Shown: piece after piece, positions 53,736-64,000 of the stretch | Numbering within the stretch: position 1 is the first letter of the stretch | Layout: each line of letters starts with the position of its first letter | Assembly (NCBI GenBank): GCA_024195585.1 | Contig: SWBL01000210.1 | Coordinates: forward strand, 26,572-90,571 | Direction: 5' to 3' | From: Aureobasidium sp. EXF-3400 | Taxonomy: Eukaryota > Ascomycota > Dothideomycetes > Dothideales > Saccotheciaceae | DNA length: 64,000 nucleotides | Position numbers and translations under genes: made by a program | Notes under the pieces: model-generated | Databases searched by the model: none | Told to the model about the DNA's origin: nothing | What the model saw: only the letters and a program-made list of their open reading frames with translations

Positions 53736-54826
53736 CTTTACGAAAGTTAGTTGCTGTATTTGCCTTGTGTGTGTTTGCAAGTAGACTACTCGAGTGGTGG
53801 TTTGCTTGATGGTGTTGGAAGTACCTGAAACTAGCACGAGAGACGATTTATATACGAACTCGAGAGTCAACCAAACTTACTACCATGCGTATGGGCACAA
53901 AGAGAAACGTTGTGGATCATCTCGCAGACAGTTAATCATAAATGAGGGTCCTCGGGGATTCTTTGTTTGTGTATACAGACAAAGATAGAAGAAGATTTGA
54001 CCTTGCTTTGTTGGTGAAAGAGCCTTTGGAGAGTCGTGGCATATTATAAGCGAGCAGGATTTGAATTCATCAGAAAGCGTGTCCTTGTCATCATGGAAGG
54101 ACCTCGCGTATCCTTTGTTGTGGTTCGAGATGACCCCTGAGGCTCTACACAGAAGTTCGTTCACATCTGAGTGAAAGTAACACCAGTATCATAGTAAGCA
54201 AAGTCAGCATTATTCCTGTCGAACTGGTGGAATGGCGCAGTGGTAGTAGCTCGTGTCTCCCATGTAGTTAGCCGGTGTCCACCGGTTCGACTCTCCTCAA
54301 CGCCAAATCTTTACGCCATGAGGGGTCCCAGTAATCCTCGCACGATAAAAATAATGACGAAAGGTAGAATACTTTCTCTTCCCCTCCTAGCACTACGGCA
54401 GCTAGGGGGGTTTCTGTTTTGTGAAAGTCTTGTACTAATGACGTCCGTTGCTGATATGTCGTGTGAATAAGCTTTGTTTTGATGTCAAAGACCTCGGTCC
54501 TATGACCCTTTGATCGCTACCTAATTGACGGCGAAGGTTCGATAACAAAGCATTCTTAGTCACTCTCCATCTCTCAATACGAGTCTTTGTATTGTTTCAC
54601 AGTCAGATAATCAAATCAAGCACGAACATTACAAGCAAAGAAAAAGGAATGTAATTTCACATTATGTTATGTTGGTTTCCGCCGGTCGGTAAGAGATGAG
54701 TTTTGGGAACGTATATCGATGGAAAAAAAGAAAATTCATTTTTAGCCTAAGCAAACAATAAGAGATACTTACTATGGATGCAAGAAGAACGTGAGACCTA
54801 CCGAGTACTGTTGTGCCAGATATTAT
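53736..54826. other. Intergenic with the TATA box of the upstream gene
   Basis: 1.1 kb. A tRNA-like string at ~54224-54306 contains GGCGCAGTGGTAG and GGTTCGACTC but does not fold into a proper cloverleaf, so no tRNA is called. Confidence 0.4.
53849..53854 (-). promoter_or_regulatory. TATA box of the hypothetical gene 52830-53735
   Basis: TATATA in the context GTATATAAATCG on the - strand, ~115 bp before the ATG. Confidence 0.5.
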
Positions 54827-55699: not shown

Positions 55700-56162
55700 C
55701 CTGCGGGTAGTGGTGAGTAGAGTTTCGAAAGTGTGTTGATGAAAGTGTTGTTAGCCAACACTTGGGAACATATAAGTAGTAAACAGTATTGGGTCGGTAC
55801 TGGAAGATGGGCCATTGTTAATGGTGCCAGAACAAAGGACCACTGTACGAGAACAATGCATTGTGGAAAGGGGTTCAATTTGTTCAAAGAAGTGACACAA
55901 GACATGAAAGAAAGGCTGTCTTTGGTCAAGCGACTTGACTAATATCAACAGGAAGTCAGACAAATATCGAGCGAGACAGTGAGCAAGATAACGAGGAAGG
56001 AGGTTAAGCGGCAGTAATAGAAGATATCGGCATGTGATCGGCGAGTCATGTTGTTTACGCCAAGGCTGAGAGTCAACAGAAGCCGGGGTAAACAATAAAT
56101 TGTTTCGAGGGCAGCAGCGCATTGGGAGACAGACACACAACACCTAATCACATACAGCAAAA
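55700..56162. other. Divergent promoter of the zinc-finger gene and MadBub
   Basis: 463 bp between the two start codons; the TATA-like element of the zinc-finger gene is near 55770. Confidence 0.4.
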
Positions 56163-59100
56163 ATGGCAGGCTCGGATCTGATCGACTTCGAGGTCATCGA
56201 GGGACACAAAGAGAACATACAGGCTCTACCGAGTGGACGATCAGCAAGAGCATTGGCAGCCTTGTACTCGCCGCCATTAACCAGTGGACAACAACGCACT
56301 TCCCTCTCGAAAGACGCTCATGACGAAGAGCGCAAGGAGTACGAGGACGAACTCGCCTTGATCGACGAAGCAGACGATCCGCTCGATATCTACGACCGCT
56401 ACGTCAAGTGGACTCTCGACACATACCCCTCGGCCCAATCAACACCACAATCCCAGCTGCTGCCTCTGCTCGAGCGTGCCACGAGAGCTTTCCTTTCCTC
56501 AACGCAGTACAAGAACGATCCCCGCTATCTGAAACTATGGCTACACTACATCCGCTTCTTCTCAGACGCCCCGCGTGAGACGTTCGTCTTTCTTAACCGC
56601 CACGGAGTCGCCGAGTCGCTCGCTCTCTACTACGAAGAATTCGCTGCTTGGCTCGAACATGCCGGTAGATGGACACAGGCAGAAGAAGTCTACAACATGG
56701 GAATCGAAAAGGGCGCCACGCCCGTCGCACGCTTGACAAGGAAGTTCAAAGAATTCCAGCAACGCAATGCTTCTCGTGATCAACAAGTCGCCGAACCAAC
56801 AAGCCCTGCTCTTCCCGTCGCTCGCGCCGTCCTGGGTGCAAAGGTCGATCCCTTCGCCGCTGCACTCGCCGCAACCACTCCACAACAAGCAGTGAAGCCT
56901 GCTGCGACCAAGAAGCCCAAGGCTGGAAAGATGGCCATCTTCGCTGACGACTCTCCACAAGATCAGGGCGCTTTCGGTACCCCTGGCGAGAAGAATGGAT
57001 GGGACAACATTGAGTCAATCCAGAATAGAAAGAAGGAGAACGCGATAGCGCCCAAACCCATGGCCGGAGAGACGCTGAAGGCAGGAAAGACAAACACAGG
57101 TGTTCAGAAGATGGCTATTTTCAGGGTAAGCATTACATCCTTCCGTCCTTCTTTTACGTTCCAAATATTCACGAATGCAGGACTAACGGGCTGGCGACGT
57201 TTTTGTGTATTCCAGTCATCCTCTACTGTAAGACATGCCTACGAATCAAGTAAACATGCTTCCCAACGGGTTATCAATCTAAAGACTGGTAGACCTGAAT
57301 GTGTCTTTGTGAATCTTGAAGCCGTCTATCCCGATCCCAGCGATCCATCTGTCGAATTCTGCTTTGAAGAGCTGAGAGCTAGGCATCGTGGCTGGCTGGA
57401 TCGCGATTGGGCTGCTGAGCGAAATCAAGCGCGATCTGTTAACCAAGCACAGGAGAATCCACAAATCAGTCAACAACCAAAGGAGTCGAAACGCGGTTTC
57501 GCCATCTTCAGTGACGCACCAGCTACCGCAAAGCAACCAGAACAAGAACGCCCTACAAGTCAAAGAGGCTTCCAAATATTCCAGGACGATTCCGAGAACA
57601 AGTCATCACCTGCACAATCGTCGCCACTGACCATCGACACTTCGCTCAAGGTTGTACCTGTCAAAGACGAGAATGACGAAAACAGGCCTCCGTCCAAGGC
57701 TGATGTCGAACTTGCAAAGAGAATGCGGCGCGAAGAGCGTGCTAACCGGACGCGCAAGATTCAGGTTATGGATGTCGAACATGTTCAGAAGGAGACTCAG
57801 ACCATCAAACTCAACATGGACTCGCCATCGGGAAAGAAGTTACGAAAAAAGAAGGTTGCCGAACCTACAATGACCATCAACACAAAAGAAGCCATGGATG
57901 AGATCTACGGCATCTTCAGTCAACCCGTTCAAACTGCTGCAGACGAGGACGCCGAGGAGTCTGAAAGTGAGGAAGACAGTGATGACGATAGTGACGACGA
58001 TTACAGCAGTGATGGAGAGAACACCACCACTGGCCATGTTTCGGCCGCAGGAAGCGATTATGGTGATGAGACACGACGGGAAATCCTTGCATCGCAACAA
58101 TCATCCCAGGAGGAAACAACGCAAGACACGGAGGACCAAGAAGACGATGATGAAGACAAGACTGATATCAGCGCTTGGTCTGATTATGATGAAAACAAGC
58201 CTGTCACTGAAACTGCCGCGACCTCTGCACACTCCAGGACCGGAGACGGACTGTCAACACCGATAGATGAAATGCCTCCACCATTCGATGGTGAGAACGG
58301 CGAGCAGAAAATTAAGTACGTCCCGATACCACCTGAGGGTTATGAACCCGTAAGGTCACAATATCGGGACCCTGTCATCGTCGCTCAGAATCGTCTCCCA
58401 TTCATGACACCCATTGTCGAGCATACTGAGTCTTCAATCGGCGCTGCAACCATCCGGGCTGAGCTGGAACAGGGCTTCACTGCCAAGACACCATCGAGAC
58501 AAAACCACAGCAATGCTGATATCGAAGAGGAAGATGAGGATGAAGAAGACGAGGACGACGATAGTCTCATGAGCAGCCCCTTCCAAGTCCTCAGCGGTGC
58601 GGAGCTGGAGAACAAACGTAAGATCCTGCAGCCGATCCGTACGAAAACGACAAAGGGAATAGTATCCCTGAGCGAAGACGTTGCAGGTGCTGCTAAACCC
58701 AAGCCTCTCGCCCTTCGTCCAGCACTTGCAGAGCCTATCACCAAAGGTCCCATCATCAAGGACCCACAAATCAACCCTGTAGACCCAGAGATCCGCCAAA
58801 TCATCTTGTCGCAGATCTATCCTCCGCTGAGCTCGTACGAAGGCTATTATGAGCACAAGGACATCCAACACGCACGCACACCAGAGATTCGCAAATACTC
58901 AAAAGCAGTCGGCAAAGGCAAAACTGCAACAGAGAAGAGCAGTGCATCTCTACCTCCCGCACCTGTTCTCAATTTGGAGAATAGCAAATACACCTTGAAG
59001 CGCGAGTTGGGTGCTGGAGCCTTCGCGCCCGTTTACCTACTTGAAAATCACAACTTCTTGGCTTCTTCAGACAGCAACAACGAGAATGACGAAAATGCAT

Positions 59101-60032
59101 CTGTGATGGGTCAAGGAACCTTCTCAGCAGTCCAACGCCATCCCCTGGAAGCACTAAAGATGGAAGATCCTCCTTCCGCCTGGGAATTCTACATGCTGCG
59201 ACAAGTTCACCGCCGTCTGGGAGTCTCTCGGGCCACCGAATCAGTGATCCATGCCTACGAAATGCATATTTTCCGTGACGAAGGCTTCTTGGTTGAGGAG
59301 TTCCGTGGTCAGGGCACGTTACTTGATTTGATCAACGTGGCTAGAGCCGAGGCAGGGGGCACGCTTGATGAAGCTCTAGCCATGTTCTTCGCTACCGAGT
59401 TGATTAGGGTAGTGGAGGCATTGCATAGCAAGGGACTTATCCACGGAGATCTCAAGGGAGATAACGTTTTGGTACGCTTGGACGACTGCTCTTCCTGGAG
59501 CTCCACCTACGACCCTTGTGGTGCAAACGGCTGGAAAGCCAAAGGCATCTCCTTGATCGACTTTGGCAGAGGAATCGACATGCGTGTATTTGCCCCAGAA
59601 GTTCAGTTTGTAGCTGACTGGGAAACCTCGTCTGCCGATTGCGCCGAGATGAAGGAAATGCGTCCTTGGACTTACCAAGTGGATTACCATGGTCTGGCTG
59701 GCCTCTTGCACTCATTGCTCTTCGGCAAATACATGAGCACTGTAGCAGACAAAGGACAAGGCATTGGCGCAGGAGCAACGAAACATTACAGAATCAAAGA
59801 GGGCTTGAAGAGATATTGGCAGCAGGAGATCTGGGGTGAGGCATTCGAGATGTTGTTGAATCCAACGATGTTTGTGCAGCAAGAGGAAGGTGGAAGAATG
59901 CCGTTGAACAAGGGATTGAAGGGATTGAGGGAGAAGATGGAATCATGGTTGGTGGCGAACTGTGATAAGGGTGTTGGACTCAAGACGATGGTCAGGAAGA
60001 TGGAGGAGGCTGTCAAGGCGAAGAAGAGGTGA
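56163..60032 (+). CDS. BUB1: Spindle checkpoint kinase of the MadBub (Bub1/BubR1-Mad3) type
   Basis: Kinetochore checkpoint protein that helps inhibit APC/C until chromosomes attach. Exons 56163-57125 and 57216-60032 flank a 90-bp, in-frame intron (gtaagc...ttccag) to give 1259 residues. The N-terminal TPR-type Mad3/BUB1 homology region is at ~55-190 (DPLDIYDRYVKWTLDTYP, RAFLSSTQYKNDPRYLKLWLHYIRF). KEN boxes lie at 16-18 (GHKENIQ) and ~291 (RKKENAI). Acidic middle regions follow. The kinase domain begins ~912 (YTLKRELGAGAFAPVYLL) and contains HGDLKGDNVL (~1063, with HGD in place of HRD as in Bub1) and IDFGRGID (~1107). Mad3-like motifs and Bub1-like kinase together fit the undivided MadBub ancestor. 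Spliced alternatives near 57126-57250 are possible. Confidence 0.93.
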   Translation: MAGSDLIDFEVIEGHKENIQALPSGRSARALAALYSPPLTSGQQRTSLSKDAHDEERKEYEDELALIDEADDPLDIYDRYVKWTLDTYPSAQSTPQSQLLPLLERATRAFLSSTQYKNDPRYLKLWLHYIRFFSDAPRETFVFLNRHGVAESLALYYEEFAAWLEHAGRWTQAEEVYNMGIEKGATPVARLTRKFKEFQQRNASRDQQVAEPTSPALPVARAVLGAKVDPFAAALAATTPQQAVKPAATKKPKAGKMAIFADDSPQDQGAFGTPGEKNGWDNIESIQNRKKENAIAPKPMAGETLKAGKTNTGVQKMAIFRVSITSFRPSFTFQIFTNAGLTGWRRFCVFQSSSTVRHAYESSKHASQRVINLKTGRPECVFVNLEAVYPDPSDPSVEFCFEELRARHRGWLDRDWAAERNQARSVNQAQENPQISQQPKESKRGFAIFSDAPATAKQPEQERPTSQRGFQIFQDDSENKSSPAQSSPLTIDTSLKVVPVKDENDENRPPSKADVELAKRMRREERANRTRKIQVMDVEHVQKETQTIKLNMDSPSGKKLRKKKVAEPTMTINTKEAMDEIYGIFSQPVQTAADEDAEESESEEDSDDDSDDDYSSDGENTTTGHVSAAGSDYGDETRREILASQQSSQEETTQDTEDQEDDDEDKTDISAWSDYDENKPVTETAATSAHSRTGDGLSTPIDEMPPPFDGENGEQKIKYVPIPPEGYEPVRSQYRDPVIVAQNRLPFMTPIVEHTESSIGAATIRAELEQGFTAKTPSRQNHSNADIEEEDEDEEDEDDDSLMSSPFQVLSGAELENKRKILQPIRTKTTKGIVSLSEDVAGAAKPKPLALRPALAEPITKGPIIKDPQINPVDPEIRQIILSQIYPPLSSYEGYYEHKDIQHARTPEIRKYSKAVGKGKTATEKSSASLPPAPVLNLENSKYTLKRELGAGAFAPVYLLENHNFLASSDSNNENDENASVMGQGTFSAVQRHPLEALKMEDPPSAWEFYMLRQVHRRLGVSRATESVIHAYEMHIFRDEGFLVEEFRGQGTLLDLINVARAEAGGTLDEALAMFFATELIRVVEALHSKGLIHGDLKGDNVLVRLDDCSSWSSTYDPCGANGWKAKGISLIDFGRGIDMRVFAPEVQFVADWETSSADCAEMKEMRPWTYQVDYHGLAGLLHSLLFGKYMSTVADKGQGIGAGATKHYRIKEGLKRYWQQEIWGEAFEMLLNPTMFVQQEEGGRMPLNKGLKGLREKMESWLVANCDKGVGLKTMVRKMEEAVKAKKR

Positions 60033-62993: not shown

Positions 62994-63597
62994 AGTGTGG
63001 TCGACACAAGACCGGAAGTTCCTTTTGTTTCACATGTTTTCTTTTGGATACCAGCGACATTCAACTGGATCCATGTATCTTTCATCAAGCGTTGGCGTTG
63101 GTTGGCATGCAGAGAATGGAACCTCTCTGACTACTGGGCATCATACTGGGAGGGTCTTTGAAGTTTCGGGGGAAGCGGCGTTATCAGATATGGGCATTTG
63201 TCCATTGTAAATACAACAAACCATGAAAACATGTCTTTGAAACCCGATTGTGCATCAGATGTGAATGACCCTTGTGAAGAAAGTGCATGTGAGGACGGTA
63301 GCCGTTTCAATATGTCGTCGATAGAGTTTCCGATAGGTAGAGCGATGCAATCACGTGTGCGGGGAGTAAAGGCCAGTGCCTTCTCGAAGCGTCAAACAAC
63401 GACAGTTCATAATCCTGTACAAATCCTGCTGCTCATTTCCGTCCTACTTCACCGCAACCGCAACTCAACTCGCTCCACCAACCTTTCGCACGCTCCCGCT
63501 GCCCTTCACAAGACTCTCACGTCTCGCCGACTTCGTCTCCGACAACCCAACCCAACACCCGTCCAGCCCCGGCACGCAACCGTGGCATACCCTTTCA
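62994..63597. other. Intergenic, promoter and leader of the antizyme gene
   Basis: 604 bp; nothing beyond the expected flanks recognised. Open frames running into 63598 from upstream are out of frame with the antizyme. Confidence 0.4.
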
Positions 63598-64000
63598 ATG
63601 GCGAATTATTCCAATCAACCCCGTAATAGTAGTAGTAATTACTACCAGGCGACCAAGGAAGTCGCCGCCCGTTCAAACATCCAGGCCAGCGCCTACACCG
63701 TCGATGCCGTCGACATGGCCCTGAAGGGCTTCCACTACTCCACCTGCGGGGCAGGCGGTACGTATTCCGCCCCTTCACTGCTCATTCGCTGGACACTAAC
63801 ACCATGACAGGAGCGGGGTGGTGGGTTTGAGGTGAGCACTGGCATACCAAGCCCGCCGCGGTCGCCCTCACGGGCTTCGTCGTCGCCGGAGCGCCCGAGT
63901 CTCAAGGCTCGCTCGCGCAGCGGAGGCGCCGCATACACCATCACGGAAGAATGTGAGAGACTCTTCTGCGAGACACTGGACACCGTTTTTCTTGGTGAGG
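63598..64000 (+). CDS. OAZ1: Ornithine decarboxylase antizyme, +1 frameshifted, 3' end outside the window
   Basis: Binds ornithine decarboxylase and targets it for ubiquitin-independent proteasomal degradation, closing the polyamine feedback loop. ORF1: exons 63598-63757 and 63811-63827 (53-bp intron, gtacgt...gacag) encode 59 residues ending ..GAGWWV before TGA at 63828-63830. ORF2 starts after skipping T63828: codon GAG at 63829, then EVSTGIPSPPRSPS, a basic linker, and the antizyme core AYTITEECERLFCETLDTVFLG at ~63925-63996. ORF2 has no good start of its own, and the TGIPSPP and TITEECERLF segments match fungal antizymes as I know them. A GTGAGG at 63995 may be an intron donor or coding. 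The catalytic-competence end of the protein lies beyond the window. Confidence 0.88.
63825..63831 (+). promoter_or_regulatory. OAZ1: Antizyme +1 programmed ribosomal frameshift site
   Basis: GTT TGA G: P-site codon GTT (63825-63827), stop codon TGA in the A site, and a G after it. Reading GAG GTG AGC after a one-base skip joins ORF1 to the antizyme frame. Antizyme shift sites normally use TGA stops, and polyamines raise shift efficiency; the exact shift codon here, GTT, is seen in the sequence. Confidence 0.82.

Follow-up and report, generated by a model that had tools for sequence, protein, structure and literature searches.

The forward-strand interval 63598-64000 of the window, the window being the whole stretch of 64,000 nucleotides taken from contig SWBL01000210.1 (C210) of Aureobasidium sp. 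EXF-3400, was identified as the 5′ half of an ornithine decarboxylase (ODC) antizyme gene that is very probably decoded by frameshifting at GUU_UGA. The identification draws on the layout of the open reading frames (ORFs), a match to the antizyme domain, a second copy of the gene in the same genome and the conservation of ORF1 in Pezizomycotina. These results bear out the central claim of the preliminary description of the region, which was of an antizyme produced by +1 frameshifting at GTT TGA; its further suggestion that the site might be a lineage variant is supported at the protein level by the ORF1 ends and pre-junction motifs of relatives. The genome comprises 53.4 Mb in 717 contigs.

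Reading frames and shift site

ORF1 opens with ATG at 63598, and its second exon closes with GGG TGG TGG GTT TGA at 63830. As had been described, the ORF1 stop lies at 63828-63830 directly behind GTT, and the omission of a single base, T63828, opens ORF2 with EVSTGIPSPP...TITEECERLFCETL. The length of 59 residues given for ORF1 also stands, but it is reached only once a 53-nt intron (63758-63810) is removed, which the earlier count implied and the description left unmentioned; the unspliced frame stops at 63805-63807. GTT TGA is identical in the second copy, on contig C199, where intron 1 (Table 1) and the linker that follows the site (49/70 columns identical) have diverged. A sequencing error at the site, one of the doubts raised in the preliminary description, is unlikely, because the second copy carries the identical site and because separate ORF1 proteins in the databases (P0122, P0124 and P0127, for example) end GAGWWV.

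The layout agrees with that of known antizyme genes, in which a smaller ORF1 overlaps a larger ORF2 in the +1 phase and the only universal base of the shift site is the first T of the ORF1 stop (PMC2375905). Both copies have the small ORF1 of 59 residues with ORF2 in the +1 frame from 63829, and in both the site GTT_TGA stands at the ORF1 stop. UCC, a common though non-defining shift codon of antizymes, is replaced here by GTT.

Two related ORF1 proteins, P0123 and P0124, read through the position of intron 1 with no intron sequence. In some others (P0180, P0191 and more) intron 1 seemingly lies about 8 nt before UGA, within the UGG element.

Table 1. Features of the antizyme gene in the window
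Feature	Position	Strand	Remarks
Antizyme ORF1 exon 1 (codons 1-53 and first base of codon 54)	63598..63757	+	154/160 columns identical to second copy
Intron 1, 53 nt, GTACGT...CTAAC (63796-63800)...CAG	63758..63810	+	40/59 columns identical; splice signals kept in second copy
Antizyme ORF1 exon 2, through shift codon	63811..63827	+
UGG UGG at the antizyme "module A" position	63819..63824	+	From sequence; Trp near the same place in relatives
Frameshift site GUU_UGA: P-site GTT 63825-63827 and stop TGA 63828-63830	63825..63830	+	Identical in second copy
Antizyme ORF2, +1 frame, first 57 codons; runs past contig end, further intron	63829..64000	+
Predicted hairpin 5′ arm (CCACTACTCC) in spliced mRNA	63732..63741	+
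Predicted hairpin 3′ arm (GGGGTGGTGG), includes UGG UGG and abuts shift codon	63815..63824	+

Continuation and identity of the gene

C210 ends at window position 64000, inside the antizyme gene. The antizyme region is present in the genome in a second, diverged copy on C199 (79% identity across the last 1.2 kb), and the final 59 bases of C210 are exactly common to the edge of C199 and to the starts of C248 and C250 (reverse complement). Contigs were joined over this 59-base overlap and a second intron of 54-55 nt was removed, which gave products of 276-278 residues; the C210-C248 join yielded a protein of 276 residues. Both copies retain ORF1, ORF2, the two introns and the shift site. On reading, P0005 and P0007 were found to combine a C210-type start or linker with a C250-type 3′ half, and P0001 and P0003 to combine C199-type sequence with a C248-type 3′ half. 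Because these relatives show matching halves, the copy in the window most likely continues on C250. The nearest named organisms among the protein matches were Aureobasidium. Diploid strains and hybridization are mentioned in published work on Hortaea werneckii and A. melanogenum.

The protein from the C210-C248 join matched Pfam ODC_AZ (PF02100) over residues 164-276 (E 4.7e-43; 146.1 bits against a cut-off of 24.2), so that ORF2 has the antizyme similarity on which the earlier interpretation had been made to depend. When the entire genome was searched with ODC_AZ, three matches were returned, on C248 and C250 only, where the genomic 3′ halves lie. The ORF1-UGA-ORF2(+1) layout was found in both gene copies. 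No solved structure matched in sequence, whether the query was the one protein (E up to 1) or a profile built from 14 sequences (E up to 0.01). The genome also holds two genes with an Orn/Arg decarboxylase domain (PF02784), presumably ODC and the likely target of the antizyme. An antizyme of the Dothideomycetidae type, P0025, is filed under Quercus suber and probably represents fungal contamination of the oak assembly.

Shift codon in related fungi

A profile search with ORF1 returned 133 relatives at E up to 10, the best 120 of which were read; the counts of ORF1 ends given here and below refer to these 120. An ORF1 was taken to reach the site when its end fitted the pattern W-x-[VSPAG] or [SG]WV, so that a Trp near the end is part of the filter. 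Sixty-five did so, ending in Ser (36), Val (19), Pro (7), Ala (2) or Gly (1), and the remaining 55 fell short, apparently mostly by running into intron sequence. The rough signature class with QASAY and similar residues took in 21 of the 65, of which 19 end in Val and two in Ser; none of the 65 ends in Val outside this class. The two Ser-ending members, P0172 and P0175, look similar to sequences from Pleosporales, P0026 and P0036 for example. Two more Val-ending ORF1s, P0241 and P0242, were added by a second profile search made with Val-type and related ORF1s (57 matches, two of them evident chance bacterial ones), and P0180, which ends RWV, escaped the ending pattern. ORF1s ending ...GAGW were considered as a different stop arrangement; the idea was dropped on the reasoning that an unspliced reading into an intron starting GTAA explains them better.

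Antizyme homologs numbered 232, and the best 120 were examined for the +1-frame residues before the junction. GFE was present in 20 and [IVM]PE in 24, the motif was not visible in 72, and four had no core motif. Provided that ORF1 stops there, GFE implies NTT_TGA and PE implies NCC_TGA; Val together with GFE therefore implies GTT_TGA, and Ser, Pro or Ala together with PE implies TCC, CCC or GCC. Outside this genome the codons are thus deduced at the protein level, the two frames being represented mostly by separate records, and DNA was seen for the two copies described here only. DNA of relatives was sought by tblastn, for a comparison of GTT and of the hairpin described below, and neither the 18 pattern matches in viral_contigs nor the 50 in genome_contigs contained any.

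Eight GFE/Val species were looked up and all eight belong to Dothideomycetidae: Aureobasidium melanogenum, Pseudocercospora eumusae, Elsinoe australis, Myriangium duriaei, Septoria linicola, Hortaea werneckii, Baudoinia panamericana and Meristemomyces frigidus. Three PE species fall outside that subclass, namely Decorospora (Pleosporomycetidae) and Zopfia and Coniosporium (Dothideomycetes of uncertain place). Further PE species, such as Botrytis and Xylographa, lie outside Dothideomycetes. GUU_UGA in Dothideomycetidae, with NCC_UGA (mostly UCC) elsewhere in Pezizomycotina, would therefore appear to be a lineage variant, and a single origin of the GFE group is plausible. Some points tell against so simple a pattern. 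Near relatives, among them several Aureobasidium and Hortaea, are represented in the protein rows, whose counts are therefore not independent, and P0186, which ends in Gly, fits neither the GFE/NTT nor the PE/NCC class. Nor is a single origin of GFE shown by the trees: one label change (support 37/15) was obtained with 36 rows, from which Pleosporales-type rows among others had been left out, and two label changes with a fuller set of 42 rows that took in more.

The preliminary description had also pointed to the base after the stop. Its letters are correct, a non-UCC site followed by G, but the G is probably not special, since Glu, which is coded by GAR and so implies a purine behind UGA, is the residue next to the junction in all 20 GFE and all 24 PE rows; this Glu is itself part of the search motif, and 76/120 rows are uninformative.

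Codon conservation between the two copies

Over codons 11-59 of ORF1, 44 of the 46 comparable codons are identical between the copies. Four yardstick gene pairs gave 1006/1524 identical codons, the best 49-codon window among 228 reaching 0.91; further pairs gave 471/832, and the decarboxylase pair 303/422. By its longest open frame a third elongation-factor-domain pair had a codon identity of 0.749, and the L038/L039 elongation-factor pair (90.2% nucleotide identity over 1188 columns) offered no usable frame in the sense direction.

Other comparisons lessen the weight of this conservation as a sign of an RNA signal. An EF-Tu-like pair (L037/L040, sense direction) had 263/304 identical codons (0.87), and ORF2 itself had 134/154, the identical shared edge included; these two results weaken synonymous constraint as proof of such a signal. 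Values of 0.975 and 0.983 had come from the pairs L037/L040 and L038/L039 when read in what is apparently the antisense frame, a flawed control that the sense reading replaces for L037/L040. The low synonymous divergence of ORF1 may thus come in part from its expression level. Expression accounts less readily for the last codons of ORF1, because the two GGG codons and GTT are unchanged there, GGG is rare (5% of Gly codons in the long ORFs of the window), and in the yardstick comparisons GGG was kept in 2/10 and GTT in 20/61 cases.

Candidate stimulatory signals

The last 15 codons of ORF1 were predicted to fold into a hairpin in which CCACUACUCC (63732-63741) pairs with GGGGUGGUGG (63815-63824). 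The arms lie in different exons, and the 3′ arm abuts GUU. The predicted energy of -24.6 kcal/mol was equalled by 0/2000 synonymous recodings and by 10/1000 with matched GC. Folds as stable as that of codons 43-59 were seen in 2/2000 synonymous and 7/1000 GC-matched recodings, as stable as that of codons 41-59 in 0/2000 and 0/325, and no control stretch was as stable as the hairpin (0/380). The stem has one change in the second copy, C to T at 63741, by which a C-G pair becomes U-G and pairing is kept.

These statistics flatter the hairpin, since the folded stretch was picked after the fold had been seen, and several results count against it. A z score of -3.2 or lower was found in 3/380 control stretches, compared with -3.5 for the hairpin; the hairpin of the second copy is weaker (z -2.2); the longer region, set against dinucleotide shuffles, gave z scores of just -1.8 and -1.0; and the comparison is confined to the two gene copies of this genome. 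That the hairpin is a frameshift stimulator is therefore put forward tentatively, as a possibility with the odds somewhat against it. On the 3′ side, stretches of 115 and 121 nt that start at the shift codon are barely, if at all, more stable than shuffled sequence (z -0.33 and -1.12), and no 3′ stimulator is proposed because of this weak folding and the divergence of the linker between the copies.

Module A is a 6-7 nt element that abuts the shift site in most antizymes, and the paper that describes it leaves its mode of action open; the antizymes of some Basidiomycota naturally have UGG at codon -2 (PMC4505036). A stem-loop 6 nt 5′ of the +1 site of ABP140, described in 2025, stimulates only where the P-site tRNA can re-pair, and has been proposed to pull the mRNA (PMC12661321). 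With modest confidence, the most likely stimulator of the present gene would be a 5′ element acting at the RNA level, made up of UGG UGG and the hairpin. A broader conjecture, rather doubtful and slightly less likely than a stimulatory role of the hairpin as such, is that in Dothideomycetidae NCC was replaced by GUU and the shift is driven mainly by a 5′ hairpin that holds module A in its 3′ arm and pulls the mRNA. If that is true, module A in this lineage would be an arm of an upstream pulling hairpin and not a separate sequence signal.

Alternative explanations

Splicing could dispense with a frameshift altogether by removing the stop and joining ORF1 to ORF2 in one frame, as the gene models of relatives assume. 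The six best matches, P0001-P0006, are such one-frame models; the preliminary description had expected annotation pipelines to call a 59-residue ORF or to miss the gene, and the databases instead hold these site-bridging models, along with separate short ORF1 predictions. A systematic search for introns that would join the frames gave 30 candidates in the copy of the window and 29 in its counterpart, with 26 at positions that align between the two. The 26 shared candidates were filtered for a consensus-like donor and a pyrimidine-AG acceptor, and 63821-63920 alone passed; its donor GTGGGT is fair, its acceptor is GCAG, both copies have it and it fits the P0005 model, all of which weighs against frameshifting. 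It lacks, however, a CTRAY branch motif such as intron 1 has. The bridging introns of P0001-P0006 have boundaries that differ between species, the acceptor AG of the P0003 model is present in C199 and absent from the copy in the window, and excision of such introns would delete a GxPSPPxSP-like linker whose reading in the ORF2 frame is widely retained. Moreover, 65/120 related ORF1s reach this very stop. Splicing in place of frameshifting is thus very improbable, although 63821-63920 may conceivably be spliced in an isoform. About as improbable, or slightly more so, is entry into the ORF2 frame by a -2 shift, which would insert one extra residue (V-F-E). The same downstream frame results from -2 and +1, and the sequence alone does not distinguish them, but antizymes are described as +1-decoded (PMC5009743, PMC2375905). 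The least credible possibility of all is a pseudogene or an assembly artefact at a contig end: C210 does end within the gene, yet both copies keep the ORFs, the introns and the site, and separate database sequences agree with them.

The remaining alternative accepts the shift and places its main cause in the nascent ORF1 peptide (GWWV or GFHYSTxGAGG) acting in the exit tunnel, much as the preliminary description had taken the Trp pair as possible evidence of an exit-tunnel effect. The peptide NIxASxY...GFHYSTxGAGG is conserved in the Pezizomycotina sampled, and a nascent-peptide stimulator of antizyme frameshifting has been reported in Agaricomycetes (PMC4505036). The Trp pair, however, stands at the place of module A, and relatives have Y, R, C, L or F in place of its second member. 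Conservation of the codons also exceeds that of the peptide, given that the two GGG and GTT are unchanged where the yardstick genes keep such codons in a minority of cases. The evidence for a signal at the RNA level is somewhat stronger, and a mainly peptide-driven shift is possible but less supported, and unlikely on balance.

Proposed mechanism

Under +1 frameshifting at GUU_UGA, ribosomes would decode ORF1 until GUU occupies the P site and UGA the A site, where they would pause. A fraction would terminate and release the 59-residue ORF1 peptide, and the remainder would slip one base forward, read GAG next and produce the antizyme of 276 residues with the junction V-E. By analogy with other antizymes, polyamines would raise the shifting fraction, and the antizyme, a protein that restrains polyamine synthesis, would then inhibit ODC. 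We infer the shift itself, its +1 and not -2 direction, the polyamine control and the binding of ODC.

Most likely the P site is occupied by tRNA-Val(AAC), with an anticodon that is presumably IAC. ARAGORN found this tRNA in 3/4 small stretches tested, and an anticodon-arm pattern for it had 36 matches in the genome against 7 for the reversed control. By reasoning from the codon, tRNA-Val moved onto UUU would give up one pair and retain those at the middle and wobble positions. UCC, CCC, GCC and GUU have equal bases 2 and 3, so that the middle pair can re-form after the slip, and for the same reason the implied UCC_U, CCC_U and GCC_U would keep middle and wobble pairs too; the Gly-ending P0186 does not follow this rule. 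The hairpin may re-form in the wake of the ribosome and could thereby draw the mRNA forward; with the outer UGG UGG codons under the ribosome, the base of the stem would lie 6 nt from GUU.

Other features of the window

The 46 bases 5′ of the ATG (63552-63597) match the second copy in 40/46 columns, 32 of them identical in a row, and the region further upstream matches in 168/218. Read in frame, the bases before the ATG give ..SPGTQPWHTLSM; P0115 reads QPWQNLIAM and P0176 TPWHPVTM ahead of the ORF1 Met. This stretch is possibly a leader element or a non-AUG extension.

A diverged copy of window positions 56036-60030 lies inverted at C248:16579-20583; if C199 and C248 belong together, it stands 3′ and not 5′ of the second antizyme copy. 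The two copies of the region would thus differ by a rearrangement. Up to about 245 bases around 54188-54435 have 23 further genomic matches at 74-91% identity and are likely to be a dispersed repeat.

Comparison with known systems and significance

Antizyme +1 frameshifting is well known and GUU_UGA appears to be a new site for it, although the 2007 antizyme survey of Ivanov and Atkins, the abstract of which reportedly mentions branch-specific shifty codons, may have listed it earlier. A literature search for GUU_UGA in connection with antizyme found no paper, and no mention of GUU as an antizyme shift codon was found in passages of PMC5009743, PMC12661321, PMC11818727 and PMC5644247, the 2007 survey and a paper of Ivanov and others from 2000 lying outside the search. 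UCC_UGA makes up a substantial majority of eukaryotic antizyme sites and CCC_UGA is rare (PMC5009743). With the UCC_UGA antizymes the present gene shares a short ORF1 ending in UGA, an ORF2 in +1 and the ODC_AZ domain; it differs from them in GUU and in a post-site sequence that diverges between copies, with no evident 3′ stimulator. Agaricomycete antizymes, which use UUU-UGA (PMC4505036), are alike in having a U-rich shift codon other than UCC and an occupied module A position. Their shift codon is UUU and not GUU, however, and their conserved 5′ structure lies 106 nt upstream, whereas the hairpin predicted here abuts its site; they also have a nascent-peptide stimulator, an effect that is no more than a possibility in the present gene. 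OAZ1 of Saccharomyces cerevisiae, with the site GCG_UGA_C in which GCG is reported not to re-pair (PMC5009743, PMC12661321), is likewise an antizyme with a lineage-specific shift codon. ABP140 is a different gene; the likeness lies in a stem-loop directly 5′ of a +1 site, its base 6 nt away here if UGGUGG is held open, with the present hairpin being a prediction compared within this genome only.

The antizyme gene models of Aureobasidium and its relatives carry doubtful introns and merit checking. The lineage pattern amounts to a natural experiment in the choice of P-site codons that permit a +1 shift at UGA. Should the hairpin prove real, antizyme would stand beside ABP140 as a user of a form of stimulation described very recently, and a mechanical role would become possible for module A.
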